Source: Ampullaceana balthica (lineage: Eukaryota > Mollusca > Gastropoda > Lymnaeidae). Taken from it: 64,000 nucleotides of DNA. Location: the NCBI GenBank assembly GCA_944989445.1, contig CALYLW010001097.1:687598-751597 (forward strand), read 5' to 3'. The position numbers were made by a program, and so were the translations under genes. The number at the start of each line of letters is the position of its first letter. The first letter of the stretch is position 1. The notes below the pieces were generated by a model, which was given only the letters and a program-made list of their open reading frames with translations, ran no database searches and had not been told where the DNA came from. Positions 4,896-57,530 of the stretch are shown piece after piece.

Positions 4896-4989
4896 CCCCG
4901 TGTCCGGATAATCACGTGAGTGGCGACACCTGGTTTCCGGAAGGTTGTATGGAATGTAACTGTGATGATGATGGTTACCAGTGTGCCAG
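4896..4989 (+). CDS. VWC-like secreted protein, penultimate coding exon
   Basis: The exon is bounded by an acceptor (CTTATGTCTTTAG) and a donor (GTGCCAG|GTAATG). It supplies two nucleotides to a preceding codon, then 30 codons, then AG of a split Ser codon. The peptide has PCPDN, a Trp and the Cys pattern C..W....C..C.C......C, which begins a von Willebrand factor C (VWC or single-VWC) module. Upstream exons, including any signal peptide, are not in the window; they lie beyond the LINE or left of position 1. The exact end of this exon is the seed of the 55-bp array that follows. VWC-like modules occur in secreted binding proteins and single-VWC immune-type peptides; function here is unknown. 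Confidence 0.75.
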
Positions 4990-5075
4990 GTAATGTATAC
5001 ACCACCAAACTTATAGGAACATATCATTTCTAAAATCGTGCCAAGTAATGTATACACCAGCAAACTTATGGGAAC

Positions 5076-6747
5076 TAGGGGACCTCCGGATATCCGGACC
5101 GGATATCGGGATTTCGCTACTATCCGGATTCGGCAAATACTTATGGCAGATCTGGATAGTATCCGGATATCAATGTAGTAAAGATTTTTTGAAATCAAAT
5201 TAAATTAATATTAATAAGTTTATAAACAAATATATAAAAAGTAAAAAACAATAACCAGAAATCAGTAGGCCTACATTTAACAAGAATGTATAGTGAGAGA
5301 GCATTCAGAATTCGCCGAACAAACGTGGGATGTTATTGTTGTTATTGTTATTGTTCTTGAAAAAGAATTCGGGCATGACAAGCTCTTAATGTTTCGAAAC
5401 TTGAAAATTGAAGAAACAAACTACAAACTTAAAGGTAACAAGTACTGCTGAGTACCATGTTACAACTTAGTTGTAACTGTTAACTAGTAACTATTTTATT
5501 TACTCATGTCATTAAATTATTTTCATTGTTAAAGCTGGTATATTAATTTTATGTTAAAAAATAATAATTTTATGTTAAAAAATAATAATTTTATGTTAAA
5601 AAATAGTAATTTTATGTTAAAAAATAATAATTTTATGTTAAAAAATAATAATTTTATGTTAAAAAATAATAATTGTAAGTTTAATTTGTAAATTTTAGTT
5701 TATAGTATAAACTTTATAGTTAAACGGGAGCCTTGGAAACTGGGACAGGCTGAGTGTTGGCTTTCGTTTTTAACTTCTTTTTCATTGACTAGTCCGTTTA
5801 CAGTAGTCAATCATTCAATACTTTCAATGCAGTATTTACATTAATTTTTTTTACTGATATGATTTAAGTTTTATCATTGTAATAATTTTATATTATTTGT
5901 TGGGGTTTTTTTTCGCTGAACTTTAAATTGCATTTGCTATTTGATTTGATATGCGAACTTAAAAATAAAAATGTGGCTTGTCTCACGTGTTATATCTTAA
6001 TCAGCTTCATAACTCTGAAACTCTAGTCTAATGTGAATATTATAATTATACAAAATAAGTTAAGTAACAAATTATGGTATACATTAAAATATTAATATAG
6101 AACAAAATAAACAAATTAACAAGCGTTGATCATGAAATCATTCAAATCCATGCAAAATACAGTAAAACAATCAAACTCAATACGAGAAAAAATATTTAGT
6201 TAAAAATTCACAAGTATAGATATTACTTTACTACATTAGATAACAAACCAAGTTGACGATTAACAACATGTTAAACTTAATTAAATCGTCTAAATAAAAG
6301 AACAGTTTATATTATAGCTCTAGATCACGACTTCTTGTACACTACACTACACACTCAGTACAACAATGTTCACTTGGTACACACTACACACTCAGTACAA
6401 CAATGTTCACTTGGTACACAGTTCAAAGTTCGTTGAACTTCGTTCAAGTTCGTTCATTCAATTCATTGTAAAATGTTTATTGTTCACGTAGACATTGTCA
6501 CAAACGGTCATTGTAGATAACAAATACTCTCCATATGTTGGATAATAAATATTTTAATAAATAGTATTAAATACTATTACATAAATGATATAAATTAGTA
6601 AAGTACACCCCCACCCCACCCACCCCACCCCCACCCTATCAGCTCTTACTTCAATGTGGAGATATACGGATTCTGGATCACGCAAATATTAGGGCCAAAC
6701 TATCCGGATCCGGCAAATAGTAAAAAAACATATCCGGCTGTTCCCTA
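5076..6747. mobile_element. Non-autonomous hAT-like DNA transposon (1.67 kb)
   Basis: Imperfect terminal inverted repeats TAGGGGACCTCCGGATAT and, from the right end, TAGGGAACAGCCGGATAT are flanked by 8-bp duplications atgggaac / ataggaac (one mismatch). Subterminal regions are rich in ATCCGGAT-type palindromes. The AT-rich interior has no transposase frame. It inserted into a unit of the donor array. Placement in hAT rests on the 8-bp duplication and TAGGG ends. Confidence 0.75.
5545..5672. repeat. 21-bp AT-rich tandem repeat, ~6 copies
   Basis: TTTTATGTTAAAAAATAATAA repeats with one variant copy inside the hAT-like element. Confidence 0.9.
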
Positions 6748-6993
6748 ATAGGAACATACCATTTCTACAATTGTGCCAGGTAATGTATACACCACCACAC
6801 GTATATCAACATATCATTTCTACAAACGTGCCAGGTAATGTATACACCACCACACTTATAGGAACATATCATTTCTACAATTGTGCCAGGTAATGTATAC
6901 ACCACCACACTTATAGGAACATATCATTTCTACAATTGTGCCAGGTAATGTATACACCACCACACTTATAGGAACATATCATTTCTGCAATTG

Positions 6994-7142
6994 TCTTATC
7001 TTATCTTATCTGTTTCAGACGCTCCTTCTATACAGAAGATTATTGCGTCCTACGCTTATCTATGGTTTGTGTTTAGTCCTGCATTCTTATTAGAGTTTTA
7101 AATTTTGATAAAGTGTTGGCTTTCCTGGTTTCTTCAGACAAA
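6994..7142 (-). mobile_element. LINE 3'-end fragment
   Basis: About 150 bp closely match the 3' UTR and last codons of the LINE at 1085-4785 (shared stretches ATACAGAAGATTATTGCGTC and GATAAAGTGTTGG). It is heavily 5'-truncated and interrupts a unit of the 55-bp donor array. Confidence 0.85.
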
Positions 7143-7236
7143 TGTGCCAGGTAATGTATACACCACCAAACTTATAGGAACATATCATTTCTACAAACGT
7201 GCCAGGTAATGTATACACCACCACACTTATAGGAAC

Positions 7237-7400
7237 ATAAATACGCACACGAATTGTGTAATCAAAACAATACATTAATGCTTTATTAATTGACTATAAT
7301 ACAAAAGTTGACGTTTCGGCTAAATGCCTTCGTCAGTACATATAACTGACTCAAGAATTAAAATTATATTTACCTTATATAAGATATTCTATATCATGGA
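7237..7400 (-). mobile_element. Penelope-like element terminal fragment (candidate)
   Basis: The stretch contains GACGTTTCGGC and GCCTTCGTCAGT on the + strand, a signature of Penelope-like element termini as I remember them. It directly abuts the last donor-array unit. No reverse transcriptase or GIY-YIG frame remains. Confidence 0.5.
7310..7336 (-). ncRNA. Hammerhead ribozyme core (candidate)
   Basis: On the minus strand the order is CUGACGA, a short hairpin AGGCAUUUAGCC (stem II), then GAAAC and GUC, matching the conserved hammerhead core CUGANGA...GAAA...UH. Minimal hammerheads with tiny stem III are known in Penelope-like element repeats. I could not draw a convincing stem I or III, so this copy may be degenerate or need a dimer. 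Confidence 0.45.
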
Positions 7401-7404
7401 TAAA

Positions 7405-7865: not shown

Positions 7866-7930
7866 TTTCTTCTTTTTAGTCCACTAACAAAAACGTGTTT
7901 TTTTTATAATCTTTTTTTTTACCTCTATTT

Positions 7931-8340: not shown

Positions 8341-8357
8341 CATTTTACTCTTTACAG

Positions 8358-8682: not shown

Positions 8683-8701
8683 TGTGTTCAACCAACCCCA
8701 A

Positions 8702-8982
8702 ACACAATAAATACAAACATAATAAATACAAACACAATAAATACAAACTCAATAAATACAAACTCAATAAATAAAAACCACAAACTCAATAAATAAAAAC
8801 CACAAACTCAATAAATACAAACCACAAACTCAATAAATACAAACCACAAACTCAATAAATACAAACCACAAACTCAATAAATACAAACCACAAACTCAAT
8901 AAATACAAACCACAAGTTCAATAAATACAAACCACAAACTCAATAAATACAAAACAAAAACCCAATAAATATAAACCACAAT
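8702..8982 (+). repeat. Tandem array of poly(A) signals in the 3' UTR, 14 or more AATAAA
   Basis: Starting about 20 bp after the stop codon, units of about 12-22 bp containing CAATAAATACAAAC repeat. Nearly every unit carries a canonical AATAAA on the sense strand, the first at 8706-8711. The gene's poly(A) signal thus appears reiterated. Which copy is used cannot be told from sequence. Confidence 0.85.
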
Positions 8983-9837
8983 TTTTGACATTCAGTGGCT
9001 ATTACAGGCAACTTGATTATCTATAGTACATTGGCAATGAATATTTAGTTGTTGCTTTTTATATTAGATGCAAATTGATGAGTATTTTTTTAAGACACCA
9101 CCGTGGCGTCCAATTAAAATTACGCCCTATATTTCGGTTGTTTTTGATTGGCTAAATGATAGAAATGGTCCAGTGCTATTAATAGAATGATGTTTGTGTA
9201 GATACACTCTCGTTAAGAAAAGATCTTATTAAACTATTATTTTGGATAAACTAAAACATTTAAACAATCAACTGTTGTAAGAAATATTTCAGTTGTATTC
9301 TCCATTAAACTAATACAATGATGTCGAGTTGATTTGTTTTTTTAAAGTACAGACATTGCTATACATTAATTAAAGAGAAAATGAATTTTTTTAAAGCCAC
9401 ATCGTGTTTTTTTTCATTCTTTGATTACAATTTTTTTTTAATCTTTACGCTACCATAAATCTTTGATTACTATGTTTCTTTATTACGATACTACTAAATA
9501 ATCTCAAATCTTCCTTTGGATCAACTCCATAAAACTTCCTATAACAACATGTTCAAAAATAGGATTTCACATCTTATTAATGAAAGAATCAAAATACAAA
9601 CGTTTAACTAATACGTCATTACACTCAATTTAATTTTACTAATCATTCGACCAAAAAATCGTCTGTCAAAATTTTGTAAAATATATTTTACAATTATTTT
9701 TGGTTCCGAATGCAAAAGATTACTTAGAATTAAGGAGTCACTTTAGTCACGTGCCCACCGGCTAGACATGTGTTTGAGAAATATTTCGTTTAACTGAGCT
9801 CACAAGTTGTTCAAGTCCAAGGTGGGGCAAACTACTA
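8983..9837. other. AT-rich intergenic DNA, nothing recognised
   Basis: No coding-like frame, domain or repeat array was seen. Poly-T runs and scattered AT blocks only. Confidence 0.5.
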
Positions 9838-19164: not shown

Positions 19165-19232
19165 GTAAATTAATTGATGTTCTTTAATTGATGTTCTTTA
19201 ATTGATGTTCTTTAATTGATGTTCTTTAATCG
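19165..19232 (-). repeat. 16-bp repeat covering the PAQR stop codon, ~4-5 copies
   Basis: On the minus strand each unit reads ATTAAAGAACATCA. The PAQR coding sequence ends ATCGAT-TAA inside the most upstream unit, so the stop codon itself is part of the repeated unit. A separate short run of ACAACCACAAG repeats lies at 19098-19145. Confidence 0.85.
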
Positions 19233-19813
19233 ATTTTCTTGTTTTCAGCATCTCCAAAGAGCAGCTGAAGATCTTGACAAAGATCTTGATCAGACAGTTG
19301 TCGGCCTGCTGCCACTAGGTGGCAGGAGTGGCATGGATACTCCATGGGGGGTGACTCTGATGTGTCTTCTGATGAAGCGTCCCTAACAACACATGGGATG
19401 ACGGAACGCTGAACACAATAAATAAGAGTGACGACTTCAAGGGCCATAAGCGTGGCAAGAGAGAGAGTCAGGTGACTCAAGTTGGGCTCTAAGTTCTCAC
19501 TGACGCGCGTCACATTGATGTCGTGATCCATGGCCCTAATCATGGCCAACATGGCCATCACGGCCAGAACGTGAAATATCTGGTGGCCGTGGCCGAATAA
19601 GTCAAATCCTCCAGGGAGGAAACTCTCAGGGATTTGGCCGGCGAACGTGATGGCGCAGAGCGCGGTAAGCGTTAAAACGAGGCCAAGATGGTGGAGAGAC
19701 GCGTAGGAACATCCGGGTTCTTGCATGCACTGGTAGTAGCGGGACAGAATGGGTGTGGCAACAAACACTCCCTGGATGGCCACTCCTACCAACATCAAAG
19801 CTTTTCTCTTGGA
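19226..19813 (-). CDS. PAQR: PAQR receptor, exon 4 (residues 198-392)
   Basis: The acceptor TTTTTATCCTCAAG precedes TCC AAG, in phase 0 with exon 3. This exon encodes the later membrane segments. Hydrophobic runs are visible around VGVAIQGVFVATPIL, LGLVLTLTALCAITF, IFHVLAVMAMLAMI and LSLATLMALEVVTLIY. The signature GHGHQIFH (271-278) carries the C-terminal zinc-binding histidines. A ~55-residue cytosolic-looking tail follows, with acidic and Cys-containing stretches, ending ENKKID. The tail makes the protein longer (392 aa) than typical vertebrate membrane progestin receptors, which I recall as ~340-350 aa. The stop codon lies inside a 16-bp tandem repeat. Confidence 0.9.
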   Translation of the reverse strand, partial: SKRKALMLVGVAIQGVFVATPILSRYYQCMQEPGCSYASLHHLGLVLTLTALCAITFAGQIPESFLPGGFDLFGHGHQIFHVLAVMAMLAMIRAMDHDINVTRVSENLEPNLSHLTLSLATLMALEVVTLIYCVQRSVIPCVVRDASSEDTSESPPMEYPCHSCHLVAAGRQLSDQDLCQDLQLLFGDAENKKID

Positions 19814-22095: not shown

Positions 22096-22771
22096 GACGC
22101 ATTCAATGCAAACTTCAGGGATACAGCTCAAACTTTACTAGATAAGTTTATCAAGTTTGAAACGGTTGTAACTGCAAAACTATACTTAAGAATATTCCAG
22201 CACACAGGATCGTTTTCTAATTATTTACAAACCACCGGAATGGATGCACTTCAAGCTTACCGTAATGTAGATTGTACTGATAAGTTGTTAAAAATATTTC
22301 CAGAGATTTCGATGGTGTTTTCGACAGTGCCAAAAGATTTGTTTCCTGTGCCAATAACAAGTTGGAAGAAGAAAATGTTGAAATTACCATTTTGTAGAGA
22401 AACTTTTACACCAACCAAAATTGATGTCTGATGAGAGAATAACGCACGTGGTAGTAGGAAATAATGCAGCGGACAGTTATCGCATTGAAGTTCATAATTG
22501 CGTCATGGACAAAATTGTAAAAACTTTTGAAAAGCGATTTAAAAGTCACGATTCCTTATACGCAGATATTGTCTGTCTTGATCCACAGAAATTTGAGGAT
22601 ATTAAACAACAAGGTTTGGCTACATCAGCGATAAAGCGTCTTAGCAGTTTTCTCGTTAAACTTAAATTCGATGAAAGCGCCTTAGCGACTAATCTCACAG
22701 AACAGCTAATTGGCTGCGCAGAAATGGGACAAATTTAAATAATGTACCGGACGAATACCTTCTCCAAATGT

Positions 22772-29859: not shown

Positions 29860-31430
29860 GACATCCTGATGTCAATCCTTCCACATACATTCTGATGTCA
29901 AACCTTCCACACACATCTTGATGTCAAACCTTCCACACACATCCTGATGTCAAACCTTCCACACACATCTTGATGTCAAACGTTCCACACACATCTTGAT
30001 GTCAAACCTTCCACACACATATTGATGTCAAACCTTCAACACACATCCTGATGTTAAACCTTCCACACAAATCTTGATGTCAAACCTTCCACACACATCC
30101 TGATGTCAAACCTTTCACACACATCCTGGTGTGTCAAACCTTCAACACACATCTTGATGTCAAACCTTCCAGGCACATCCAGATGTGTTAAACCTTCCAC
30201 ACACATCTTGATGTCAAACCTTCCACACACATCTTGATGTCAAACCTTCCACACACATATTGATGCCAAACCTTCCACACACGTCTTGATGTCAAACCTT
30301 CCACACACATCCTGATGTCAAACCTTCCACACATATCCTGATGTCAATCCTACCACAAACATCCTGATGTTAAACCTTCCACACACATCTTGATGCCAAA
30401 CCTTCCACACACATCTTGATCTCAAACCTTCCACACACTTCTTGATGTCAAACCTTTAACACACATCCTGATGTGTCAAACCTTCCACACACATCCTGCT
30501 GTCAAACCTTCTACACACATCTTGATGTCAAACCTTCCATACACATCCGGATGTCAAACCTTCTACACACTTCCTGATGTCAAACCTTCTACACACATCT
30601 TGATGTCAAACCTTCCATACACATCCTGATGTCAAATCTTCCACTTACATCCTGATGTCAAACCTTCCACACATATCCTGATATGTCAAACCTTCCACAC
30701 TAATCCTGATGTCAAATCTTCCACAGACATCCTGATGTCAAACCTTCCACACACAACCTGATGTCAAACCTTCCACACACATCCTGATGTCAAACCTTCT
30801 ACACACATCCTGATGTCAAACCTTCCACACATATCCTGATATGTCAAACCTTCCGCACACTTCCTGATGTCAAATCTTCTACAGATATCCTGATGTCAAA
30901 CCTTCCACACACATCTTGATGTCAAACATTCCACACACATCCTGATGTCAAACCTTCCACACACATGTTGATATCAAACCTTCCACACACATCCTTATTT
31001 CAAACCTTCCACACACATCCTGATGTCAAACCTTCTACACACATCTTGATGTCAAACCTTCCACACACATCCTGATGTCAAAACTTACACACGCATCCTT
31101 ATATGTCAAATCTTCCACACATCCTGATGTCACATCTTCCACACACATTCTGATATGTCAAACCTTCCACACACACCCTGATGTGTTAAACCTTCCATCG
31201 ACACACATCTTGGTGTCAAACCTTTCACACAAATCCTGATGTCAAACCTTCCACACACATCTTGATGTAAAGCCTTCCACACACATCTTGATGTCAAGCC
31301 TTCCACACACATCCTGATGTCAAACCTTCCACACACATCCTTATGTCAAACCTTCTACACACATCATGATGTCAAACCTTCCACACACATCTTGATGTCA
31401 AACCTTCCACACACATCCTGATGTCACACC
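29860..31430. repeat. 26-bp satellite adjacent to the PAQR exon 3 donor, ~60 copies
   Basis: Units contain ACATCCTGATGTCAAACCTT (+ strand). On the minus strand the array begins about 8 nt into intron 3: the first unit reads GCAGGTGTGACATCAGGATG right after CAC|GTAAGTA. Units are degenerate, with C/T and indel variants. No exon bases are inside the unit, unlike the arrays at exons 1 and 2. Confidence 0.95.
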
Positions 31431-31440
31431 TGCTACTTAC

Positions 31441-31670
31441 GTGCTGATGAGTGAGGCAGAGTTTAGCCAGGCAGCACGTCAAGAATGCTACCCAACTCAG
31501 TAGTACATTGATGGGCAGGAAGCAAGTGTACATAACCTCATGATAGCTCGGGGTAGCGATGGCGTACATGGTAGCAATGCCAGAACCAAAGCAGAAGATG
31601 GTGACACCCATGTAGTCAAAGAGGAACAGGACGTAGTGATGCCATTGAGATTTGGAGTGGAGGAGGTGTG
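31441..31670 (-). CDS. PAQR: PAQR receptor, exon 3 (residues 121/122-197)
   Basis: The acceptor TTAAATTGCAG and donor CAGCAC|GTAAGT bound a 230-nt exon (2 nt plus 76 codons). The first two bases complete GCA (Ala 121) with the last G of exon 2, giving STGAHLLHSKS, as expected of a PAQR loop. It encodes FDYMGV, whose Asp 139 is the family's conserved zinc-coordinating acidic residue, and two membrane segments (VTIFCFGSGIATMYAI, FLPINVLLSWVAFLTCC). The first ~16 exon bases together with the acceptor AG are the unit core of the 100-copy array that follows on the + coordinate axis. Confidence 0.9.
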
Positions 31671-34600
31671 CTGCAATTTAATAGTGCTATTGAGTGGAGT
31701 AGGTGTGCTATAATGTAATGGTGCTATTGAGTGGAGGAGTTGTGCTGTAATTTAATGGTGATATTGAGTGGAGGAGTTGTGCTGTAATGTGATGGTGCTA
31801 TTGAGTGGAGGAGTTGTGCTATAATGTAATGGTGCTATTGAGTGGAGGAGTTGTACTGTAATGTAATGGTGCTATTGAGTGGAGGAGTTGTGCTGTAATG
31901 TAATGGTGCTATTGAGTGGAGGAGTTGTGCTATAATGTAATGGTGCTACTGAGTGGAGGAGTTGTGCTGCAATTTAATGGTGTTATTGAGTGGAGGAGGT
32001 GTGCTATAATGTAATGGTGCTATTGAGTGGAGGAGTTGTGCTGTAATTTAATGGTGATATTGAGTGGAGGAGTTGTGCTGTAATGTGATGGTGCTATTGA
32101 GTGGAGGAGATGTGCTATAATGTAATGGTGCTATTATGTGGAGGAAATGTGCTATAATGTAATGGTTCTATTGTGAGAAGGTGGTGTGCTATAATGTAAT
32201 GGTTCTATTGCGTGGAGGAGGTGTGCTATAATGTAATGGTGCTAATGAGTGGAGGAGGTGTGCTATAATGTAATGGTTCTATTGAGTGGAGGAGATGTGC
32301 TATAATGTAATGGAGGTATTGAGTGGAGGAGATGTGCTATAATGTAATGGTGCTATTGAGTGGAGGGGTTGTGCTATAATGTAATGGTGCTATTGAGTGG
32401 AGGAGGTGTGCTATAATGTAATGGTTCTATTGAGTGGAGGAGATGTGCTATAATGTAATGGTGCTTTTGAGTGGAGGGGTTGTGCTATAATGTAATGGTG
32501 CTATTGAGTGGAGGAGGTGTGCTATAATGTAATGGTGCTATTGAGTGGAGGAGTTGTGCTATAATGTAATGGTGCTATTGAGTGGAGGAGGTGTGTTATA
32601 ATGTAATGGTGCTATTGTGTGGAGGGGTTGTGCTATAATGTAATGGTGCTATTGAGTGGAGGAGGTGTGCTATAATGTAATGGTGCTATTGAGTGGAGGA
32701 GTTGTGCTATAATGTAATGGTGCTATTGAGTGGAGGAGGTGTGTTATAATGTAATGGTGCTATTGTGTGGAGGAGGTGTGCTATAATGTAATGGTGCTAT
32801 TGAGTGGAGGAGTTGTGCTGTAATTTAATGGTGATATTGAGTGGAGGAGGTGTGCTATAATGTAATGGTGCTATTGAGTGGAGGAGTTGTGCTGTAATTT
32901 AATGGTGATATTGAGTGGAGGAGTTGTGCTGTAATGTGATGGTGCTATTGAGTGGAGGAGTTGTGCTATAATGTAATGGTGCTATTATGTGGAGGAAATG
33001 TGCTATAATGTAATGGTTCTATTGTGAGAAGGTGGTGTGCTATAATGTAATGGTTCTATTGTGTGGAGGAGGTGTGCTATAATGTAATGGTGCTATTGAG
33101 TGGAGGAGGTGTGCTATAATGTAATGGTTCTATTGAGTGGAGGAGATGTGCTATAATGTAATGGAGGTATTGAGTGGAGGAGATGTGCTATAATGTAATG
33201 GTGCTATTGAGTGGAGGGGTTGTGCTATAATGTAATGGTGCTATTGAGTGGAAGAGATGTGCTATAATGTAATGGTGCTATTGAGTGGAGGAGGTGTGCT
33301 ATAATGTAATGGTTCTATTGAGTGGAGGAGATGTGCTATAATGTAATGGTGCTTTTGAGTGGAGGGGTTGTGCTATAATGTAATGGTGCTATTGAGTGGA
33401 GGAGGTGTGCTATAATGTAATGGTGCTATTGAGTGGAGGAGTTGTGCTATAATGTAATGGTGCTATTGAGTGGAGGAGGTGTGTTATAATGTAATGGTGC
33501 TATTGTGTGGAGGAGGTGTGCTATAATGTAATGGTGCTATTGAGTGGATGAGATGTGCTATAATGTAATGGTGCTATTGTGTGGAGGAGGTGTGCTATAA
33601 TGTAATGGTGCTATTGAGTGGAGGGGTTGTGCTATAATGTAATGGTGCTATTGAGTGGAAGAGATGTGCTATAATGTAATGGTGCTATTGAGTGGAGGAG
33701 GTGTGCTATAATGTAATGGTGCTATTGAGTGGAAGAGATGTGCTATAATGTAATGGTGCTATTGAGTGGAGGGGTTGTGCTATAATGTAATGGTGCTATT
33801 GAGTGGAAGAGATGTGCTATAATGTAATGGTGCTATTGTGTGGAGGAGGTGTGCTATAATGTAATGGTGCTATTGAGTGGAGGGGTTATGCTATAATGTA
33901 ATGGTGCTATTGAGTGGATGAGATGTGCTATAATGTAATGGTGCTATTGAGTGGAGGGGTTGTGCTATAATGTAATGGTGCTATTGAATGGAGGAGATGT
34001 GCTATAATGAAATGGTGCTATTGAGTGGAAGAGATGTGCTATAATGTAATGGTGCTATTGAGTGGAGGGGTTGTGCTATAATGTAATGGTGCTATTGAGT
34101 GGAAGAGATGTGCTATAATGTAATGGTGCTTTGGTGTGGAGGAGGTGTGCTATAATGTAATGGTGCTATTGAGTGGAGGAGATGTGCTATAATGTAATGG
34201 TTCTATTGAGTGGAGGGGTTGTGCTATAATGTAATGGTGCTATTAAGTGGAAGAGATGTGCTATAATGTAATGGTGCTATTGAGTGGAGGGGTTGTGCTA
34301 TAATGTAATGGTGCTATTGAGTGGAAGAGATGTGCTATAATGTAATGGTGCTATTGAGTGGAGGGGTTGTGCTATAATGTAATGGTGCTATTGAGTGGAA
34401 GAGATGTGCTATAATGTAATGGTGCTATTGAGTGGAGGTGGTGTGCTATAATGTAATGGTGCTATTGAGTGGAGGAGGTGTGCTATAATATAATGGTGCT
34501 ATTGAGTGGAGGAGATGTGCTATAATGTATGGTGTTATTGAGTGGAGGGGTTGTGCTATATTGTAATGGTGCTATTGAGTGGAAGAGATGTGCTATAATG

Positions 34601-35354
34601 TAATGGTGCTATTGAGTGGAGGTGGTGTGCTATAATGTAATGGTGCTATTGAGTGGAGGAGGTGCGCTATAATGTAATGGTTCTATTGAGTGGAGGGGTT
34701 GTGCTATAATGTAATGGTGCTATTGAGTGAAGGAGGTGTGCTATAATGTAATGGTGCTTTTGTGTGAAGGAGGTGTGCTATAATGTAATGGTGCTATTGT
34801 GTGGAGGAGGTGTGCTATAACGTAATGGTGCTATTGTGTGAAGGAGGTGTGCTATAATGTAATGGTGCTATTGAGTGGAGGAGGTGTGCTATAATGTAAT
34901 GGTGTTGTTGTGTGAAGGAGGTGTGCTATAATGTAATGGTGCTATTGTGTGGAGGAGGTGTGCTATAATGTAATGGTGCTATTGTGTGGAGGTGGTGTGC
35001 TATAATGTAATGGTGCTATTGTGTGGAGGAGGTGTGCTATAATGTAATGGTGCTATTGAGTGGAGGAGGTGTGCTATAATGTAATGGTGCTATTGAATGG
35101 AGGAGGTGTGCTATAATGTAATGGTGCTATTTTGTGGAGGAAGTGTGCTTTAATGTAATGGTGCTATTGTGTGGAGGTGTGCTATAATGTAATGCCGCTA
35201 TTGAATGGAGGAGGTGTGCTATAATGTAATGGTGCTATTTTGTGGAGGAAGTGTGCTATAATGAAATGGTGCTATTGTGTTGAGGATGTGTGCTATAATG
35301 TAATGGTGTGCTATAATGTAATGGTGCTATTGTGTGGAGGAGGTGTGCTATAAG
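31661..35354 (-). repeat. 37-bp satellite repeating the PAQR exon 3 acceptor, ~100 copies
   Basis: On the minus strand each unit reads ATTATAG|CACACCTCCTCC followed by ACTCAATAGCACCATTAC. The real junction is AAATTGCAG|CACACCTCCTCC followed by ACTCCAAATC. So each unit carries the first ~16 bases of exon 3, an AG before them, and the upstream CACTATTA-like intron bases. Most units have TATAG rather than TGCAG at the acceptor position. Units differ by many point changes (GAGG, GAAG, GGGG), implying an older, diversifying array. Confidence 0.95.
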
Positions 35355-35549: not shown

Positions 35550-37812
35550 TTGCCACCAACATTAGTAGATCTACCTCCACTACTTGACAACAAAATAAGT
35601 AGACCTACCTCCAGTACTTGCCACCAACATTAGTAGATCTACCTCCAGTACTTGCCACCAACATTAGTAGATCTACCTCCACTACTTGACAACAAAATAA
35701 GTAGACCTACCTCCAGTACTTGCCACCAACATTAGTAGATCTACCTCCAGTACTTGCCACCAACATTAGTAGATCTACCTCCAGTACTTGACAACAAAAT
35801 AAGTAGACCTACCTCCAGGACTTGCCACCATCATAAGTAGACCTACCTCCAGTACTTGCCACCAACATAAGTAGACCTACCTCCAGTACTTGCCACCAAC
35901 ATGAGTAGACCTACCTCCAGTACTTGCCACCAACATAAGTAGACCTACCTCCAGTACTTGCCACCAACATGAGTAGACCTACCTCCAGTACTTGCCACCA
36001 ACATAAGTAGACCTACCTCCAGTACTTGCCACCAACATAAGTAGACCTACCTCCAGTACTTGCCATCAACATAAGTAGACCTACCTCCAGTACTTGCCAC
36101 CAACATGAGTAGACCTACCTCCAGTACTTGCCACCAACATAAGTAGACCTACCTCCAGTACTTGCCACCAACATGAGTAGACCTACCTCCAGTACTTGCC
36201 ACCAACATAAGTAGACCTACCTCCAGTACTTGCCACCAACATAAGTAGACCTACCTCCAGTACTTGCCACCAACATAAGTAGACCTACCTCCAGTACTTG
36301 CCACCAACATGAGTAGACCTACCTCCAGTACTTGCCACCAACATAAGTAGACCTACCTCCAGTACTTGCCACCAACATAAGTAGACCTACCTCCAGTACT
36401 TGCCACCAACATGAGTAGACCTACCTCCAGTACTTGCCACCAACATAAGTAGACCTACCTCCAGTACTTGCCACCAACATAAGTAGACCTACCTCCAGTA
36501 CTTGCCACCAACATGAGTAGACCTACCTCCAGTACTTGCCACCAACATGAGTAGACCTATCTCCAGTACTTGCCACCAACATGAGTAGACATACCTCCAG
36601 TACTTGCCACCAACATAAGTAGACCTACCTCCAGTACTTGCCACCAACATGAGTAGACATACCTCCAGTACTTGCCACCAACATGAGTAGACATACCTCC
36701 AGTACTTGCCACCAACATGAGTAGACATACCTCCAGTACTTGCCACCACCACCAGTAGACCTACCTCCAGTACTTGCCACCAACATAAGTAGACCTACCT
36801 CCAGTACTTGCCACCAACATGAGTAGACATACCTCCAGTACTTGCCACCAACATGAGTAGACATACCTCCAGTACTTGCCACCAACATGAGTAGACATAC
36901 CTCCAGTACTTGCCACCACCACCAGTAGACCTACCTCCAGTACTTGCCACCAACATAAGTAGACCTACCTCCAGTACTTGCCACCAACATGAGTAGACAT
37001 ACCTCCAGTACTTGCCACCACCACCAGTAGACCTACGTCCAGTACTTGCCACCAACATGAGTAGACATACCTCCAGTACTGGCCACCACCACCAGTAGAC
37101 CTACCTCCAGTACTTGCCACCAACATAAGTAGACCTACCTCCAGTACTTGCCACCAACATAAGTAGACCTACCTCCAGTACTTGCCACCAACATGAGTAG
37201 ACATACCTCCAGTACTTGCCACCAACATGAGTAGACATACCTCCAGTACTTGCCACCAACATGAGTAGACATACCTCCAGTACTTGCCACCACCACCAGT
37301 AGACCTACCTCCAGTACTTGCCACCAACATAAGTAGACCTACCTCCAGTACTTGCCACCAACATGAGTAGACATACCTCCAGTACTTGCCACCAACATAA
37401 GTAGACCTACCTCCAGTACTTGCCACCAACATAAGTAGACCTACCTCCAGTACTTTCCACCGACATAAGTAGACCTACCTCCAGTACTTGTCACCAACAT
37501 GAGTAGACATACCTCCAGTACTTGCCACCAACATGAGTAGACCTACCTCCAGTACTTGCCACCAACATAAGTAGACCTACCTCCAGTACTTGCCACCACC
37601 ATCAGTAGACCTACCTCCAGTACTTGCCACCAACATGAGTAGACCTACCTCCAGTACTTGCCACCAACATGAGTAGACCTACCTCCAGTACTTGCCACCA
37701 ACATGAGTAGACATACCTCCAGTACTGGCCACCAACATTAGTAGACCTACCTCCAGTACTTGCCACCAACATGAGTAGACAAACCTCCAGTACTTGCCAC
37801 CAACATGAGTAG
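35550..37812 (-). repeat. 34-bp satellite repeating the PAQR exon 2 donor, ~67 copies (main block)
   Basis: On the minus strand units read GGCAAGTACTGGAG|GTAGGT and continue CTACTTATGTTGGT. The real exon 2 ends GTAGCAAGCACTGGAG|GTAG. Each unit thus contains exon-derived codons (VASTG) and the donor GTAGGT. The proximal block of the same array is at 42093-42250; an LTR retrotransposon separates the two. Some units read CACCACCACCAG in place of CACCAACATAAG. Unique DNA of ~195 bp (35355-35549) separates this array from the acceptor array. Confidence 0.95.
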
Positions 37813-37817
37813 ACCAA

Positions 37818-39540: not shown

Positions 39541-39549
39541 TCTAGTTCT

Positions 39550-40983
39550 TTATTGTTCTCGGTTCATCTTTCTCCTATTTCTATCATTCATGTCTTGGTT
39601 TTCATTCTTTCTCCATGGTTGATCAAAATTTCTTATTGGGGTATCAAAACTATATCTGCCTCTCCATGATCTTCTACCTTGATTATAATCTATATATATG
39701 GAATTATGATTATATCTGTCTCTCCATGATTGTCTACTTTGATCATAATCGCTATGTCTGGAATTATGATTATATTTTTCTCTCCATGATTGTCTACCTT
39801 GATCATAATCTCTATGTCTGGAATTATGATTATATTTTTCTTTCCATGCTTGTCTACCTTTGTTTTCAAAGTGATCTTGTCTTGATTTTTCTTCTGTTTT
39901 CTTTCTTATAGGGCTGTCATTGGGTGACACCCTATTTGGTTGTCCTTTATTGTGGTAACACTGTCTCGCCATATGTCCTGGCTTGTTACAGTACCAGCAA
40001 ATAGTTTGTCTGTTGCCTTGGATTGGCAGACTCTGGTTTCTCATTCCTTGTCTTCTTTCTTGGTTTTTAATTTGTATTGCTGCACAAATATCTTGTCTCT
40101 TATCCATTTCCACATTTGGATGAGATTCTTTGAATGTGCGTAATGCATTTGTTAGCTCTGCTTGAGTACGAACTTTCTTATCAGTTAAATATGTGAATAG
40201 AGCTGGTGTTGCATTTTCTAAGAACTTGTCAATTAACACCATGTCTAGTATGGCCTTTGGATTGCTTGTATCTATTGCTGTAAGTTCCAGCCATTTTGTT
40301 AATTTAACTTGTGCTTCATGCACTATGATCTGTGGATCTTTGTCCATCTTGATTCTCATTTCATGAAATTCTTTTCTATAATCATTTTCTGACTTTCCGA
40401 AATGACATAGAAGTGCCTTTTTGACATTTTATATATGTTTTTGTCTTCTTTGGCTTTACTGTTGTAAGCTCCAAATGCTGCTCCAGTTAGTTGAATCATC
40501 AGTTGTGCTGGCCAATCTTCTTCATCATAACCTTTCATGGCCATTATGGATTCAAAATAATCCAGATAAACATCCATTTTTTTCTTTCTGGCTATCATAT
40601 TTTCTAACTTTGATAGTGTCCTTCGGTGCTGACTTTCTATTTGTGTCATTACCAGGATTGTGGCCTCTACTCTCTAAATCAATTTGTAGTTTTAACTTGT
40701 CAATTTGAAGTTGTTCAAGTTCTCTTCTTGCAGCTCTTTCTTCTCTTTCAATTATTTGTTTTTGCCTCTCTTCTTCTTTGGCTATTTTTCGCATCTCTTC
40801 TTCTCTGGCTATTTTAAGCTTCTCTTTTTCTTCAGCAATTTTTTGCCTTTCTTTTTCTTCAGCTATTCTTAGCTTCTCTTCTTCTTTAGCTACCTTGACT
40901 TTCTCTTCAATAAAGTCTTTCATTTCTTTTCCACTTAGTCCAATCTCTTTAGCTATGGCAGTGAATTCTTTGAAGTAATCCAT
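39550..40983 (-). pseudogene. Gag-like protein of the LTR element, two frameshifts
   Basis: Start chosen at MDYFKEF (40983). An N-terminal highly charged coiled-coil region of ~100 residues (KEEEKLRIAEEKERQKIAEE type) is followed by a capsid-like part (MDVYLDYFE, EEDWPAQLMIQLTGAAF). Then comes a zinc knuckle, CWYCNKPGHMARQCYH (CCHC). The C-terminal part has four ~20-residue repeats around RQSWREKYNHNS. Frames change near 40600 and 40358, so the copy is broken. It matches gag polyproteins of Ty3-like elements in domain order. Confidence 0.8.
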
Positions 40984-41815
40984 GTTTAGTTTTATGGAAT
41001 AATATGAGTCAAGCAATTCGGTAAGGAATGTAGGTATTTATTTATTAAGGTATAAGTCCTCCAAATGAAAAAATCTAGAATTCAAAATACGTTAATTCCA
41101 AATAAGTGATATAATTAAACCATTAAATTTGATTTTGACAAAATGAGGCAACAAAGCATCATCACACGGGATCTTCAGTATACTTTATATATACGCTCCC
41201 TCAGATTGACAAAACACATCCGATGGTCCAAAGTTTTGAAAAAAAATAGGTCACTTAGTCAAATTTTCAATTTCCGATTTTTAGTAGGGTAGTTTTTAGA
41301 CACATTAGTTCACTCCATTATTCCAAAATTGCAATTATCACACTTTTCAAACAATGAATGAATAAAAATGTCCGTTCCTTGATTTATAATTCACACTGAC
41401 ACAGTTGTTAATAGTCCATAGCTTCTCAAGTTCAAGGTTTCGTTTACAAATATTTCCTGGAATCAACCAGCACCAGTGAGCTTGCTGGCGTATATCTGTT
41501 TACTGTGTGTCAACACACTGTCGACAGTGTGACTGTAAGGTTAGAACCAACTAGGCTGACCTAGTTTTATACAGTGCATGCAGTGGTCACGTGCGTTTAA
41601 GCCGCCATATTGAAATACTTAAAATATTCCTTCAATCTTCAAAAGTTTACACACGGCATTTAATATTCACAAAATACGATAGCTGCTAATATTTCTTCTT
41701 TTAATGAATACTTCCCTTTTGTGAATCCACAAAATAATTGTCACTTCCACGAATAACTCCTTCTTGTACTGTGTTCACTTAGGACTAATGGTAATCACTT
41801 TTACTTTGACACCAA
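40984..41815. other. LTR element 5' leader
   Basis: About 830 bp between gag and the 5' LTR. It includes the candidate primer-binding site next to 41815. No open frame or domain seen. Confidence 0.6.
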
Positions 41816-42092
41816 TGTAATATCTTTTTTATGATGTTTTACTTATTAATATATCTTGTAGGCGTTCTCTCAATACATAACCTTGCATACAATAATCCTC
41901 TGAAGAACTGGTTTCAATAAAACAACTTTAATATCTACACTATACACAATACATATATAATTTGAGGTTATACAACGTGGAGTTCTCAGCCTCAGGCAGC
42001 CGTCCGCCATTACACACCAGAATTCCCTTACTCCTCCCGCGCTTTCACTCACGTGAACTCTCCGTCATCCAACTCGTGATTCACACGTGACA
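41816..42092 (-). repeat. 5' LTR
   Basis: 277 bp. Contains an inverted CACGTG-type motif near its start and a TTTTATTGAAACC stretch. Counterpart of 37818-38105. Confidence 0.9.
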
Positions 42093-42250
42093 ACCTACCT
42101 CCAGTACTTGCCCCCACCATCAGTAGACCTATCTCCAGTACTTGCCACCAACATAAGTGGACCTACCTCCAGTACTTGCCACCAACATAAGTTGACCTAC
42201 CTCCAGTACTTGCCACCAACATAAGTTGACCTACCTCCAGTGCTTGCTAC
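42093..42250 (-). repeat. 34-bp donor array, proximal block, ~5 copies
   Basis: This block starts inside exon 2: the last 16 exon bases are the first unit's left half. On the minus strand the first two intronic units keep the exon's GGTCAACTT variant, while distal units read GGTCTACTT. That supports origin from the exon end outward. Confidence 0.95.
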
Positions 42251-42403
42251 CAAGTTGACCAAGCTACACACACCGTAGCCCAGGACAGGCCAAGATGTCT
42301 TGTCACTGAGATTCCCTCCTCCATTGAAGAACAACAAGAGCCGTATCAAAACAAGAAGGAAGCCGCCCAGGTGTGTCCAGACATTGACCGTTTCATTGTG
42401 GAG
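42235..42403 (-). CDS. PAQR: PAQR receptor, exon 2 (residues 65-120, part of 121)
   Basis: The acceptor GTTTTCCGTCAG precedes CTC CAC AAT GAA. The donor is ACTGGAG|GTAGGTC, leaving phase 1. An alternative donor 16 nt earlier (TTG|GTAGCA) was rejected because it puts exon 3 out of frame. The exon encodes LHNETVNVWTHL, the most diagnostic PAQR signature, and the first membrane segment (GGFLLVLIRLLLFF). It then gives a loop and a second hydrophobic stretch (LGYGVCSLVNLVASTG). Spacing between YRP in exon 1 and HNET here fits the family exactly when exons 1 and 2 are joined. Confidence 0.9.
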
Positions 42404-42418: not shown

Positions 42419-42790
42419 ATTACACATCAACACGAGACACACATCAAAACCCAACACACATCAACACACGGCATACAACAACATACGACACAAATTAACA
42501 TACGACACACACGACATACGCGAAACACATCAACACAGGACACACATCAACGCAAGACACAAAACAACACAGGACACACATCGACACTAAACAAACACCG
42601 ACACACGGCACACATCAACACAAGACACACGACACACATCAACACACGAAACACATCAACACACGACACACATCAACACACGAAACACATCAACACACGA
42701 CACACATCAAAACACGGCCCACATTAACACGCGACACATATCAACACATGACACATATCAACAAATATCAACACAGGACACATATCAACA
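42419..42790. repeat. ACACATCAACACACGA-type degenerate repeat
   Basis: Irregular ~17-18 bp units rich in CAACAC and GACACA. It begins about 15 nt upstream of the exon 2 acceptor, in intron 1. Confidence 0.85.
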
Positions 42791-42896
42791 CTTTATATCG
42801 TAAAGTTATATCTTGAAACACATTTTATATCGTAAGTCTATTAAGATATGTCCTAGAACATCTAATCAAACAAATAGTGCATCATGTTAAAGTAAC

Positions 42897-43245
42897 ATTG
42901 ATTGAGGCCTACCTTAATGGGATCATGTTAAAGTAACATAGATTGGAACATACATTAATGGGATCATGTTAAAGTAACACAGATTGGAACATACCTTAAT
43001 GGGATCATGTTACAGTAACATAAATTGAAGCCTACCTTTATTGGGATCATGTTGCAGTAACATGCATTGAAGCCTACCTTTATTGGGATCATGTTGCAGT
43101 ACCATACATTGAAGCCTACCTTTATTGGGATCATGTTGCAGTACCATACATTGAAGCCTACCTTTATTGGGATCATGTTGCAGTACCATACATTGAAGCC
43201 TACCTTTATTGGGATCATGTTGCAGTACCATACATTGAAGCCTAC
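42897..43245 (-). repeat. 42-bp array repeating the PAQR exon 1 donor, ~8 copies
   Basis: On the minus strand units read CAATAAAG|GTAGGCTTCAA. Exon 1 ends CACCATTAAG|GTAGGC. The distal (left) copies read CATTAAG|GTAGG, closest to the exon. Because 42 is a multiple of 3, the frame stays open through the copies: each adds 14 residues (VGFNVWYCNMIPIK). Two or three distal units have point changes in the GTAGG (for example GTATG). Confidence 0.95.
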
Positions 43246-43437
43246 CTTAATGGTGCTGTAAAGGTAATAATTCCACGGCAGCCCTACGGGTCTGTAGCCA
43301 GTGTGGATGTACGGTTCCTTGAGCAGCTCTGGCATGTCATCCACAGTCAACAGTTCCACCTGCCTTGTAACGCTACCGTATCCGGCATCGGACCGGCCCT
43401 TTGGGACTAGCGCTTCTCGTATGTGGGCCTGCGCCAT
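43246..43437 (-). CDS. PAQR: PAQR receptor, exon 1 (residues 1-64)
   Basis: The start ATG at 43437 is in good context (GTGAAATGGCG), with the 24-bp array just upstream. The N-terminus (MAQAHIREALVPKGRSD) is cytosolic-looking. LLTVDDMPELLKEPYIHTGY then RPVGLPWNYYLYS follow, matching the conserved juxtamembrane block of membrane progestin receptors (the GYRP block). The donor is ATTAAG|GTAGGC in phase 0. Distal repeated donors could extend the exon in 14-residue steps without a stop for about six copies. Confidence 0.9.
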
Positions 43438-45284: not shown

Positions 45285-46697
45285 TATGTCTATCTCATCT
45301 GTTATAGATGCTTCTTCTATACAGAAGATTATTGCGTCCTATGGTTGTCTATTCTTTTATTTTTATTCGAGTTTTAAATGATAAAGTGATGGTTTTCCAT
45401 GTTTATTCAGACAACCCATTCCACGCCCGAATTCCAGACGGGAAGAAAGAGAATTTGTATGTTTGTTCTTACATACAGAATAAGAAAAGTGTTTTTATCC
45501 TTATGTCTATCTGAGGGTTGTATTAAGTTATCTTTTGTTGTATTAACTTGTATTTCTAAATTAGAATCAATTGCCTTATATATTAGTACTACATTGTACT
45601 TTGTTCTTCTATCCCCTGGTCACTAGAGTGTTTCAAGGTTTAATGAATTAACTAATAGTGTTATTCTTGTCAGTTTCGAAACTTTTTTTGGATTTAATCT
45701 AGTACTTGTATATCAATGTTCTCGCTGGTAGATGTGCCCAACAGATGCATATTCTAGTACAGGTCTCACCAAAGTCAGGTAACATATTCTAGTACAGGTC
45801 TCACCAAAGTCAGGTAACATATCCTAGTACAGGTCTCACCAAAGTCAGGTAACATACTCTAGTACAGGTCTCACCAAAGTCAGGTAACATATTCTAGTAC
45901 AGGTCTCACCAAAGTCAGGTAACATATTCTAGTACAGGTCTCACCAAAGTCAGGTAGCATCTTCTAGTACAGGTTTCACCAAAGTCAGGTAACATTCTAG
46001 TACAGGTCTCACCAAAGTCAGGTAACATTCTAGTACAGGTCTCACCAAAAACAGGTAACATTCTAGTACAGGTCTCACCAAAGTCAGGTAACATTCTAGT
46101 ACAGGTTTCACCAAAGTCAGGTAACATTCTAGTACAGGTCTCACCAAAGTCAGGTAACATACTCTAGTACAGGTCTCACCAAAGTCAGGTAACATATTCT
46201 AGTACAGGTCTCACCAAAGTCAGGTAACATTCTAGTACAGGTGTCACCAAAGTCAGGTAGCATATTCTAGTACAGGTCTCACCAGTCAGATAACATATTC
46301 TAGTACAGGTCTCACCAAAGTCAGGTAACATATTCTATTACAGGTCTCACCAAAGTCAGGTAGCATATTCTAGTACAGGTCTCACCAAAGTCAGGTAACA
46401 TATTCTAGTACAGGTCTCACCAAAGTCAGGTAACATATTCTAGTACAGGTCTCACCAAAGTCAGGTAGCATCTTCTAGTACAGGTCTCACCAAAGTCAGG
46501 TAACATATTCTAGTACAGGTCTCACCAAAGTCAGGTAACATATTCTAGTACAGATCTCACCAAAGTCAGGTACAGGTCTCACCAAAAACAGGTAACATAT
46601 TCTAGTACAGGTCTCACCAAAGTCAGGTAACATATTCTAGTACAGGTCTCACCAAAGTCAGGTAACATATTCTAGTACAGGTCTCACCAAAGTCAGG
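45285..46697 (-). mobile_element. 5'-truncated LINE copy with an internal satellite
   Basis: Matches the 3' UTR and C-terminal codons of the LINE at 1085-4785 (for example CATTCCACGCCCGAATTCC) up to the RPVLEYA region. There it turns into a tandem array of that segment. Frame is lost by small indels. Confidence 0.9.
45757..46697. repeat. 35-bp satellite born from LINE RT-tail codons, ~27 copies
   Basis: Unit CTAGTACAGGTCTCACCAAA plus GTCAGGTAACATATT. The intact LINE reads CTAGTACAGGTCTCACCAAA at 1668-1687, the codons for the LVRPVLE segment. Some units are 32-33 bp. Confidence 0.95.
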
Positions 46698-52111: not shown

Positions 52112-52204
52112 TCACTTGACGGACAAGTAGATGATGAGAGACAAGATGAGAATGATGCAGCATACAACAATGATCAGAATGCAACATTTACGCCGAGACT
52201 TGGT
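52112..52204 (-). CDS. STX: Syntaxin-7/12-like, alternative terminal exon B (membrane anchor)
   Basis: The acceptor CCTTGTGTCCACAG opens a phase-0 exon of 31 codons: TKSRRKCC, then a hydrophobic anchor (ILIIVVCCIILILSLIIYL), then SVK-stop. Basic residues before the anchor and a short luminal end are typical of tail-anchored Qa-SNAREs of the endosomal syntaxin 7/12 type. It joins in frame to ARDYQ of the exon at 57448-57530. Cys pairs at the membrane edge could be palmitoylated (inference). It is downstream of the rival exon A. Confidence 0.8.
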   Translation of the reverse strand, partial: TKSRRKCCILIIVVCCIILILSLIIYLSVK

Positions 52205-52227
52205 CTGTGGACACAAGGGAAGAAAGG

Positions 52228-52315
52228 GACAATCATATATATTGAGTCTAAAAGAGGACATTCATATATATTGAGTCTAAAAGGGGACAATCATATATAT
52301 TGAGTCTAAAAGAAT
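52228..52315. repeat. ~30-bp repeat upstream of exon B acceptor, 3 copies
   Basis: Units contain ACAATCATATATATTGAGTC. On the minus strand they carry TTTTAG followed by ACTCAAT, and start ~25 nt upstream of the exon B acceptor. Confidence 0.85.
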
Positions 52316-52554: not shown

Positions 52555-52650
52555 TTAATTTTTCACACTGAGGCCAATGATAAGGCCAATAATACCCAGA
52601 ATAACCAGAACTATGATCAAAATACAGCATTTTTTTCGCCGTGCACTTGA
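52555..52650 (-). CDS. STX: Syntaxin-7/12-like, alternative terminal exon A (membrane anchor)
   Basis: The acceptor ATTTATTTTCAG opens a phase-0 exon of 32 codons: SSARRKKCC, an anchor (ILIIVLVILGIIGLIIGL), then SVKN-stop. It also joins directly to ARDYQ. Exons A and B align along their length (basic patch, CCILII, anchor, LSVK), so they are diverged tandem duplicates. Since A has its own stop, including A gives one isoform and skipping it gives the B isoform. Anchor residues differ: A is Gly/Ile-rich, B has more Cys, Ser and Leu. Confidence 0.8.
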   Translation of the reverse strand, partial: SSARRKKCCILIIVLVILGIIGLIIGLSVKN

Positions 52651-55224: not shown

Positions 55225-55539
55225 TTAACTAAAGGTGTGACCTATACACTATCTATACAGTAACTAATGAAACAACATATTGTCTTATCTAACCAAAGAT
55301 TTATAATTAAGCAATTAGAAGACTAGAACTTTCCATTCTATTGAATTGAATAGTTGGTACTAGCTGAGTTTTACACCGGTAAAAAATACAGTTGTAGAAA
55401 ATATGGATTGTTGACCCCTACCCAAAAAGTCACTGGTCCACTATATATTACTGCTTGGGTCACATCAAAGACAAATGTATCTTTGGACTTTTTATACAAC
55501 AAATCTTTTCAACTCAAAGGTCCTGCATACTCATTGCAA

Positions 55540-55918
55540 CAACACCAAGATACAACTGTTTACCCATTGCAACAAGACCAAGATACAACTGTTTACCCAT
55601 TGCAACAAGACCAAGATACAACTGTTTACCCATTGCAACAAGACCAAAATACAACTGTTTACCCATTGCAACAAGACCAAGATACAACTGTTTACCCATT
55701 GCAACAAGACCAAGATACAACTGTTTACCCATTGCAACAAGACCAGGATACAACTGTTTACCCATTGCAACAAGACCACGATACAACTGTTTACCCATTG
55801 CAACAAGACCAAGATACAACTGTTTACCCATTGCAACAAGACCAAGATACAACTGTTTACCCATTGCAACAAGACCACGATACAACTGTTTACCCATTGC
55901 TAAAAACACCACGATACA
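55540..55918. repeat. 33-bp satellite, ~12 copies
   Basis: Units contain ACAACTGTTTACCCATTGCA then ACAAGACCAAGAT. All three + frames and two minus frames stay open because of the period. Confidence 0.95.
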
Positions 55919-56174
55919 ACTGTTAACTCTTTGTCACCAAAAAACTTGGATGGTAATGAATGTTTAAAGACAAGGTAAATTAATGGTTTGTTTCATTAAC
56001 TGTAGCTAACTTTTTCCTTATAACCTTTTCTTGTGTATACATCTTTATTCAGCTCAAACCATACTTTATTTAGCTCATGCCATAGTGCCACACAATTAAT
56101 GATGAATCAGACATTGAAGGTTTCTTGGTGTACTACTTTCATGTTTTTAACTATGCTGTTTACAGGTTTGGTTG

Positions 56175-57415
56175 TCACGTGATAATTCCTGGCTATGAGC
56201 AAGATATCATGTGACATGATAATCACTGGCTATCAACAAGATATCATGTGACCTCATAATCCCTGGCTATGAACAAGATATCAAGTGACCTGATAATCCC
56301 TGGCTATGAACAAGATATCATGTGACCTGATAATCCCTGGCTATGAACAAGATATCATGTGACCTGATAATCCCTGGCTATCAACAAGATATCATGTGAC
56401 CTGATAATCCCTGGCTATCAACTAGATATCATGTGACCTGATAATCCCTGGCTATGAACAAGATATCAAGTGACCTGATAATCACTGGCTATGAACAAGA
56501 TATCATGTGACCTGATAATCCCTGGCTATCAACAAAGATATCATGTGACCTGATAATCCCTGGCTATCAACAAGATATCATGTGACCTGATAATCCCTTG
56601 CTATGAACAAGATATCATTTGATCTGATAATCCCTGGCAATGAACAAGATATCATTTGATCTGATAATCCCTGGCTATGAACAAGACATCATTTGATCTG
56701 ATAAACCCTGGCTATGAACAAGATATCATTTGATCTGATAATCCCTGGCTATGAACAAGATATCATTTGATCTGATAAACCCTGGCTATGAACAAGATAT
56801 CATTTGATCTGATAATCCCTGGCTATCAACAAGATATAACTTGATCTGATAATCCCTGGCTATCAACAAGATATCACTTGATCTGATAAGCCCTGGCTAT
56901 GAACAAGATATCATTTGATCTGATAATCCCTGGCTATGAACAAGAAATCATATGATCTGATAATCCCTGGCTATCAACAAGATATCATGTGACCTGATAA
57001 TCCCTGGCTATCAACAAGATATCATGTGACCTGATAATGCCTGGCTATCAACAAGATATCATGTGACCTGATAATCCCTGGCTATCAACAAGATATCATG
57101 TGACCTGATAATCCCTGGCTATCAACAAGATATCATGTGACCTGATAATCCCTGGCTATCAACAAGATATCATGTGACCTGATAATCCCTGGCTATCAAC
57201 AAGATATCATGTGACCTGATAATCCCTGGCTATCAACAAGATATCATGTGACCTGATAATCCCTGGCTATCAACAAGATATCATGTGACCTGATAATCCC
57301 TGGCTATCGACAAGATATCATGTGACCTGATAATCCCTGGCTATCAACAAGATATCATGTGACCTGATAATCCCTGGCTATCAACAAGATATCATGTGAC
57401 CTGATAATCCCTGAT
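56175..57415 (-). repeat. 37-bp satellite repeating the syntaxin exon donor, ~34 copies
   Basis: On the minus strand each unit reads GCCAGGGATTATCAG|GTCA then CATGATATCTTGTTGATA. The exon ends AAAGCCAGGGATTATCAG|GT. So 15 exon bases plus GTCA are in the unit. The first intron bases after the true donor (TTTTTGTGATTTTTG) are unique, then the array begins with a partial unit (AATCAGGGATTATCAG). Distal units have GTGACC/TGATCT variants and a few mutated donors. Confidence 0.95.
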
Positions 57416-57447
57416 TAACCCGAGATACAAAAATCACAAAAACTGAC

Positions 57448-57530
57448 CTGATAATCCCTGGCTTTACTCAGCTGCTTTGTTCCTTCTTCCACTGACAGTT
57501 GAGCGTTGTCAATGTTTGCCTCAATACTAT
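57448..57530 (-). CDS. STX: Syntaxin-7/12-like, last common exon (end of SNARE motif)
   Basis: The acceptor TTTCGCTACTCAG and donor GATTATCAG|GTCAGTT bound an 83-nt exon (2 nt plus 27 codons). The peptide SIEANIDNAQLSVEEGTKQL then SKARDYQ matches the C-terminal half of the Qa-SNARE helix of syntaxins 7/12 (SIEANVE..... QL.KA..YQ). It is a t-SNARE segment that zippers with partner SNAREs in endosomal fusion. The N-terminal domain and the rest of the SNARE motif must lie right of 64000, on the minus strand. The exon's last bases seed the 37-bp array that follows. Confidence 0.9.

Follow-up and report, generated by a model that had tools for sequence, protein, structure and literature searches.

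Introduction

Minisatellites that span exon–intron boundaries are known from amphioxus as "mirages". They were described in Adh3 (units of 10–72 bp) and in the globin genes BflGb6 and BflGb9 (150–160 bp), with the suggestion that regular splicing is undisturbed and the proposal that they are a source of new introns (PMC3087553); TnC was added to the set, and duplications in PGBD5 were likened to it (PMC3902484). Mirages are further characterised by length instability with somatic polymorphism, and by a homogenisation of interior copies that leaves out those at the boundary. Here we describe five arrays that appear to have the same form in a stretch of 64,000 nucleotides from the snail Ampullaceana balthica (GenBank assembly GCA_944989445.1, contig CALYLW010001097.1, positions 687,598 to 751,597, forward strand), referred to below as the window. 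A first-pass annotation of this DNA had pointed to the arrays and held that no described system had this form, a claim that the amphioxus reports contradict.

As in mirages, the tandem units found in the snail consist of an exon end, the splice site and adjoining intron, both boundary sides are duplicated (here at four donors and one acceptor), and the units are tens of base pairs long (34–55 bp, within the reported sizes). The differences lie in the host, a mollusc rather than a cephalochordate, with five arrays in 64 kb, and in the scale, with some 70–100 copies in two of the arrays and lengths of up to 3.6 kb. Minisatellite units at exon–intron boundaries also occur among human internal tandem repeats in segmental duplications, but those alter splicing or form new introns (PMC2812944), whereas the exons of the snail PAQR gene, the one compared in this respect, join as in its relatives. 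One further paper that we considered, PMC6823432, proved to be unrelated. Among the matches listed in a limited open literature library, we found no report of mirages in molluscs. The snail arrays thus appear to be a mirage-type structure, at high copy number, in a phylum for which we found no such report.

Arrays spanning exon–intron junctions

Three host genes are visible in the window: a PAQR receptor gene, a syntaxin-like SNARE gene and an SVWC-like gene. Based on homology and consensus, we placed 13 splice sites in them (5 donors and 8 acceptors), the least certain calls being those in the SVWC-like gene and at the second syntaxin tail exon. Five of the 13, comprising four of the five donors and one of the eight acceptors, lie inside tandem arrays whose unit crosses the junction, the property that defines mirages; counting only arrays reported by Tandem Repeats Finder (TRF), the figure is 3 of 13. 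The units, of 34–55 bp, each contain 8–19 exon bases plus adjoining intron (Table 1).

The exon ends at 4989 (plus strand) and at 43246, 42235 and 57448 (minus strand), and the exon start at 31670 (minus strand), lie where the first-pass annotation had put them, and proteins of related species bear out the donor of PAQR exon B at 42235. The annotation had also read units of 55, 42, 34 and 37 bp at these four donors and a 37-bp repeat of the acceptor; we find that the sequence across each donor junction does recur in the adjoining array and that the acceptor is repeated in the same manner. TRF alone reports neither the edge at 4989 nor that at 57448, and both were added by eye; at 57448, an irregular 47-bp step separates the edge copy from the regular array.

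Table 1. Tandem arrays at splice junctions, near exon edges and elsewhere in the window.
Array	Positions	Strand	Exon bases in unit	Relation to neighbouring features
55-bp, first copies	4982..5078	+	8	Across SVWC-like donor 4989/4990; not reported by TRF
55-bp, main block	6748..6994	+		Set apart by inserted DNA (5079-6747)
55-bp, last piece	7139..7238	+		Past a stretch resembling a LINE 3′ end (6995-7138, by eye)
42-bp	42881..43254	-	8	Across PAQR exon A donor (exon end 43246)
34-bp, at junction	42093..42253	-	17-19, with 2 mismatches	Across PAQR exon B donor (exon end 42235)
34-bp, main block	35550..37815	-		Separated from the junction part by a mobile-element-like stretch
37-bp, ~99 copies	31655..35308	-	16	Across PAQR exon C acceptor (exon start 31670)
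37-bp (TRF 56173-57413)	56173..57464	-	16	Edge copy at SNARE donor (exon end 57448)
26-bp	29861..31431	-		Begins 10 nt into the intron that follows PAQR exon C (donor 31441)
17-bp	42422..42790	-		19 nt upstream of PAQR exon B acceptor 42403
41-bp	57558..59154	-		28 nt upstream of SNARE exon acceptor 57530
29-bp	52223..52313	-		19 nt upstream of second syntaxin tail exon (52204)
14-bp	19170..19240	-		Includes PAQR stop codon (19226-19228)
22-bp	8699..8981	+		AATAAA in unit; after SVWC-like open reading frame
35-bp	45748..46697	.		Grown from a fragment of a long interspersed nuclear element (LINE); no host splice site known there

At two of the PAQR exons, the direction of copying can be read from the protein. 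The residues at the end of exon B are supported by relatives (VASTG in Lymnaea stagnalis, IVSTG in Physella and similar residues in other gastropods), and HLLHSKS at the start of exon C is conserved in several gastropods. Because the exon part of these units encodes residues conserved in other gastropods, the copies in both arrays would derive from the exons; the SNARE copies would likewise derive from their exon, given that the exon end aligns with syntaxin-1A. The direction from exon to array thus appears best supported at the two PAQR exons, and less well at the other three junctions. Array bases make up 67 of 1,834 exonic bases (4 bases beyond the PAQR stop being counted in each number), all of them at the edge at 4989, at the edges of PAQR exons A, B and C, and at the PAQR stop; the interiors of the exons contain none.

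Exon sequence accounts for half of the PAQR exon B unit (17 of 34 bases), and 47 of the 71 copies in that array carry GAG/GTAGGT. A composition of this kind could be expected if the introns themselves had been created by tandem duplication of exon segments bearing AG/GT, with the arrays as their remains. This is the mode of intron gain put forward by Rogers in 1989 (cited in PMC3087553), which shares with our arrays a tandem duplication carrying a splice signal, and mirages were themselves proposed as the source of introns in the amphioxus globins (PMC3087553). We nevertheless regard it as very unlikely here: the donor and acceptor ends of the PAQR intron between exons B and C carry two unrelated units, unique DNA is present beyond the arrays, and the Rogers scheme needs a new intron, whereas the snail introns seem to have been lengthened.

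Two features of the PAQR arrays deserve separate mention. A mobile-element-like stretch (38452-42092) with a gag-like open reading frame, whose SCAN and zinc-knuckle matches are both under the Pfam cut-offs, divides the 34-bp array in two. The 42-bp array is in frame with exon A and stays open for six units (42964-43437, minus strand), such that a failure to splice there would append 14-residue repeats to the protein.

A likely origin of the junction arrays

We consider it likely that the arrays are mirage-type minisatellites that arose by tandem duplication and amplification and were kept where the outermost splice site stayed intact. A short stretch across an exon edge would have been duplicated in tandem, leaving intact the splice site beside the real exon, that is, the first donor or the last acceptor. 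The copy would then have been amplified, presumably by slippage or unequal exchange, as part of the turnover that has converted roughly half of this region into tandem repeat. Such a duplication would be tolerated because the outer site is intact and its use, which we assume, still yields normal mRNA; duplications deeper within exons would not be. Selection would thus act through tolerance only, and the junction arrays probably persist since the duplications harm splicing little. With the 55-, 34- and 37-bp units, use of an inner copy would shift the reading frame.

The bias towards spanned donors rather than acceptors (4 of 5 vs 1 of 8, Fisher P 0.032) fits such tolerance: splicing can readily pass over further donors that lie beyond a good one, whereas additional acceptors compete with the real site and would be riskier.

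The copies would be homogenised locally, as in any minisatellite. In the SNARE array, neighbouring copies resemble each other more closely than distant ones do (0.934 vs 0.893), as local turnover gives; the corresponding figures for the other two large arrays are only slightly apart (0.936 vs 0.929 and 0.906 vs 0.898). The outermost copies of these three arrays have identities to the consensus of 0.70-0.91, compared with 0.94-0.96 in the middle, and low identity is expected of end copies anyway, as they are partly unique flank. The 42-bp array has eight copies in all, of which an ungapped copy scan missed the two that are most diverged and contain indels.

One amphioxus mirage was aberrantly assembled in the draft genome (PMC3087553), and repeats that had been collapsed or falsely extended at exon edges could in principle give a similar picture here. 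This is highly improbable: there are many substitutions between copies and two of the arrays are broken by separate insertions, features that one would hardly expect an assembler to produce, even if it may have got the copy number wrong.

Arrays near exon edges

Four more arrays come within 30 bp of a splice site from the intron side (Table 1). One of them follows the fifth donor, at 31441, and begins 10 nt inside the intron, close to the roughly 8 nt given by the first-pass annotation. The 29-bp array upstream of the second syntaxin tail exon repeats TTTTAG, an acceptor-like motif, and is possibly a decayed mirage. The four remaining splice sites have no array within 100 bp (nearest 111, 440, 712 and 766 nt).

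All P values for exon edges are post hoc, since the window was chosen for this pattern and the 13 sites come from three genes in one window; the transposon mask used with some of them is a rough one drawn by eye. The null for edge distance was built from 4,000 sampled pseudo-edges, of which 2,089 or 1,566 were kept once those lying deep inside arrays, or within arrays at both window ends, had been dropped. An array end lies within 30 bp of 9 of the 13 exon edges (two of these by eye), where 1.2-1.9 would be expected. For TRF arrays only, handled as in the null, 7 of 13 edges have an array within 30 bp (P 5.6e-5; transposon-masked 9.7e-4) and 3 of 13 junctions are spanned (P 0.021; transposon-masked 0.062). 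Array ends are therefore over-represented at exon edges, on both sides of the junction alike: five of the nine span it and four lie on the intron side. This near equality points to exon proximity combined with tolerance, rather than to a process that recognises the junction.

Two sets of observations weigh against duplication and tolerance as we have set them out. The first concerns the number of spanned junctions. Uniform seeding of one unit per array in non-array DNA would leave only 0.51 of 13 spanned with transposons kept (P 8.8e-5), or 0.83 under the rough mask (P 8.7e-4), compared with the five seen. When five introns are each given their own collapsed length and units, the expectation is 1.15 of 10 masked (P 0.0017) or 0.84 unmasked (P 0.00022), and it reaches 1.46 (P 0.0046) or 1.00 (P 0.00064), respectively, if longer exon overlaps are allowed, again with five seen. 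Tolerance plus uniform seeding alone is thus disfavoured, as giving too little for the spanning count in this window. The second concerns the copies themselves, in which the splice dinucleotide is nearly always kept in four of the five junction arrays (8 of 8, 6 of 6, 69 of 71 and 97 of 100 copies, with the real site counted) and, at the acceptor, 92% of columns are less conserved than the A of AG. The other splice-dinucleotide columns in those four arrays have a mid-range conservation rank. In the SNARE array, GT is present in 25 of 35 copies and absent in 10, and its G ranks with the least conserved columns; given these copies without GT, we rejected the idea of a general conservation of array donors.

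A mutational process acting at exon edges, for example through co-transcriptional R-loops, nicks or replication–transcription conflict near splice sites, would seed duplications there directly. The counts of 9 and 7 edges just given would suit it, as would the four spanned donors, for which the null conditioned on the introns expects 0.42-0.73 of five. Yet the junction itself is not preferred, the 13 sites belong to three genes in a single window picked for the pattern, and the other arrays described below include one inside a LINE fragment and show no donor-motif excess (in a weak test). On balance we think such a process unlikely. The wider proposal that, in this snail lineage, mutation coupled to transcription or splicing gives rise to arrays preferentially in the roughly 30 bp next to exon edges, with introns lengthening outward from their splice sites, strikes us as unlikely to a similar degree.

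Alternatively, the surplus of array ends beside exons could be a matter of age: in introns filled with insertions, the DNA flanking exons would be the oldest unique DNA and mid-intron DNA young transposon, such that old seeds are seen beside exons. This would refine rather than replace the explanation by duplication and tolerance, and we see it as a serious possibility, somewhat short of probable. Several introns contain transposon-like pieces, the rough mask lifts the expected counts by 37-63%, and the PAQR intron between exons A and B collapses to 167 bp, for which about 0.25 spanning seeds would be expected per edge. Some excess nevertheless remains under the mask (P 0.0017-0.0046 for 5 of 10).

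The first-pass annotation had offered two interpretations, one that duplications over a splice site are tolerated through one intact copy and one that they are seeded by some process linked to splice junctions. The former remains the best explanation; the latter is not favoured, given the five spanning and four intron-side array ends, the array seeded in a LINE and the lack of donor excess elsewhere.

Other arrays in the window

About half of the window is tandem repeat: 55 merged TRF intervals (period of at least 7) cover 32,036 of its 64,000 bases, and arrays hold 51.7% of its noncoding bases. Forty-nine of the 55 intervals are away from the junctions discussed above. Scored with a donor matrix, the units of these 49 intervals showed no donor-like excess over dinucleotide shuffles (0 of 49 with P ≤ 0.05, one score of at least 8, Kolmogorov–Smirnov P 0.41) in a test that is weak, as even the six intervals that hold junction arrays come out at P 0.05-0.56. 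The annotation's broader statement that satellites in this region copy splice junctions thus holds for 5 of the 13 splice sites and goes too far for the window at large; as a general account of these satellites, we rejected it on the strength of the 49 intervals and this weak test.

The LINE fragment from which the 35-bp array grew is 77% identical over 529 aligned bases to the LINE within 1187-4640, and the array pieces are 84-95% identical to it. Since this array was seeded inside a LINE fragment, arrays can be born without a host splice site. One end of the LINE within 1187-4640 itself carries a 38-bp array (4622-4785), and a related stretch lies past the other (1140-1170); these are perhaps 5′ untranslated region monomers.

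Other boundaries named by the annotation were the PAQR and hAT transposase stop codons and an AATAAA signal, all said to lie inside repeat units. The PAQR stop codon and the AATAAA do (Table 1), with 14 occurrences of AATAAA in 8683-9000. For the hAT relic the claim does not hold in the open frame, which ends at 28466, 65 bp ahead of the array; only a different frame, read by eye, has a TAA at the array start at 28532. The stop-codon and AATAAA arrays fit array ends at 3′ coding margins, with growth up to or slightly into constrained sequence. Near hAT-like pieces, an array with some 120 copies of a 30-bp unit (22693-26415, plus strand) is open for 1,240 codons and encodes DDSLEDSVRE-like repeats.

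Host genes

The PAQR gene is the most fully supported by homology. The protein from its four joined exons, which was searched without the residues at the donor end of exon B, has its best match in Lymnaea stagnalis (81% identity, 99% coverage), followed by Bulinus, Biomphalaria and Physella, which indicates a lymnaeid-like pond snail that is probably distinct from L. stagnalis; Pfam HlyIII is found at E 1.6e-27, the PDB matches are adiponectin receptors, and the exons join as expected from gastropod proteins. In the syntaxin-like gene, Pfam SNARE is found at E 3.4e-8. There are two possible last exons, 52558-52650 and 52115-52204 (minus strand), each with a different transmembrane tail, which suggests alternative 3′ ends; the SNARE exon joined to the first of these, the join covered by the homology check, matches syntaxin-1A (E 3.6e-6). 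The SVWC-like gene appears to be the weakest of the three gene calls: it is just under the Pfam cut-off (26.0 bits vs 27), and a homology search with its protein gave no homologue. A few exon limits used in the calculations are off by 3-35 bases at ends that are not splice sites (the PAQR start and stop, and the syntaxin tails).

Implications

Among the matches listed in the library, we found mirages described by that name only from lancelets; the arrays described here would bring this oddity, in high copy number, to molluscs. Should array birth truly favour exon edges, loci such as these would offer a direct test of intron lengthening and of the seeding of repeats by splicing or transcription. 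If it does not, the arrays show how freely a splice site can be multiplied into tens of copies, which bears on how the spliceosome chooses the outermost site.

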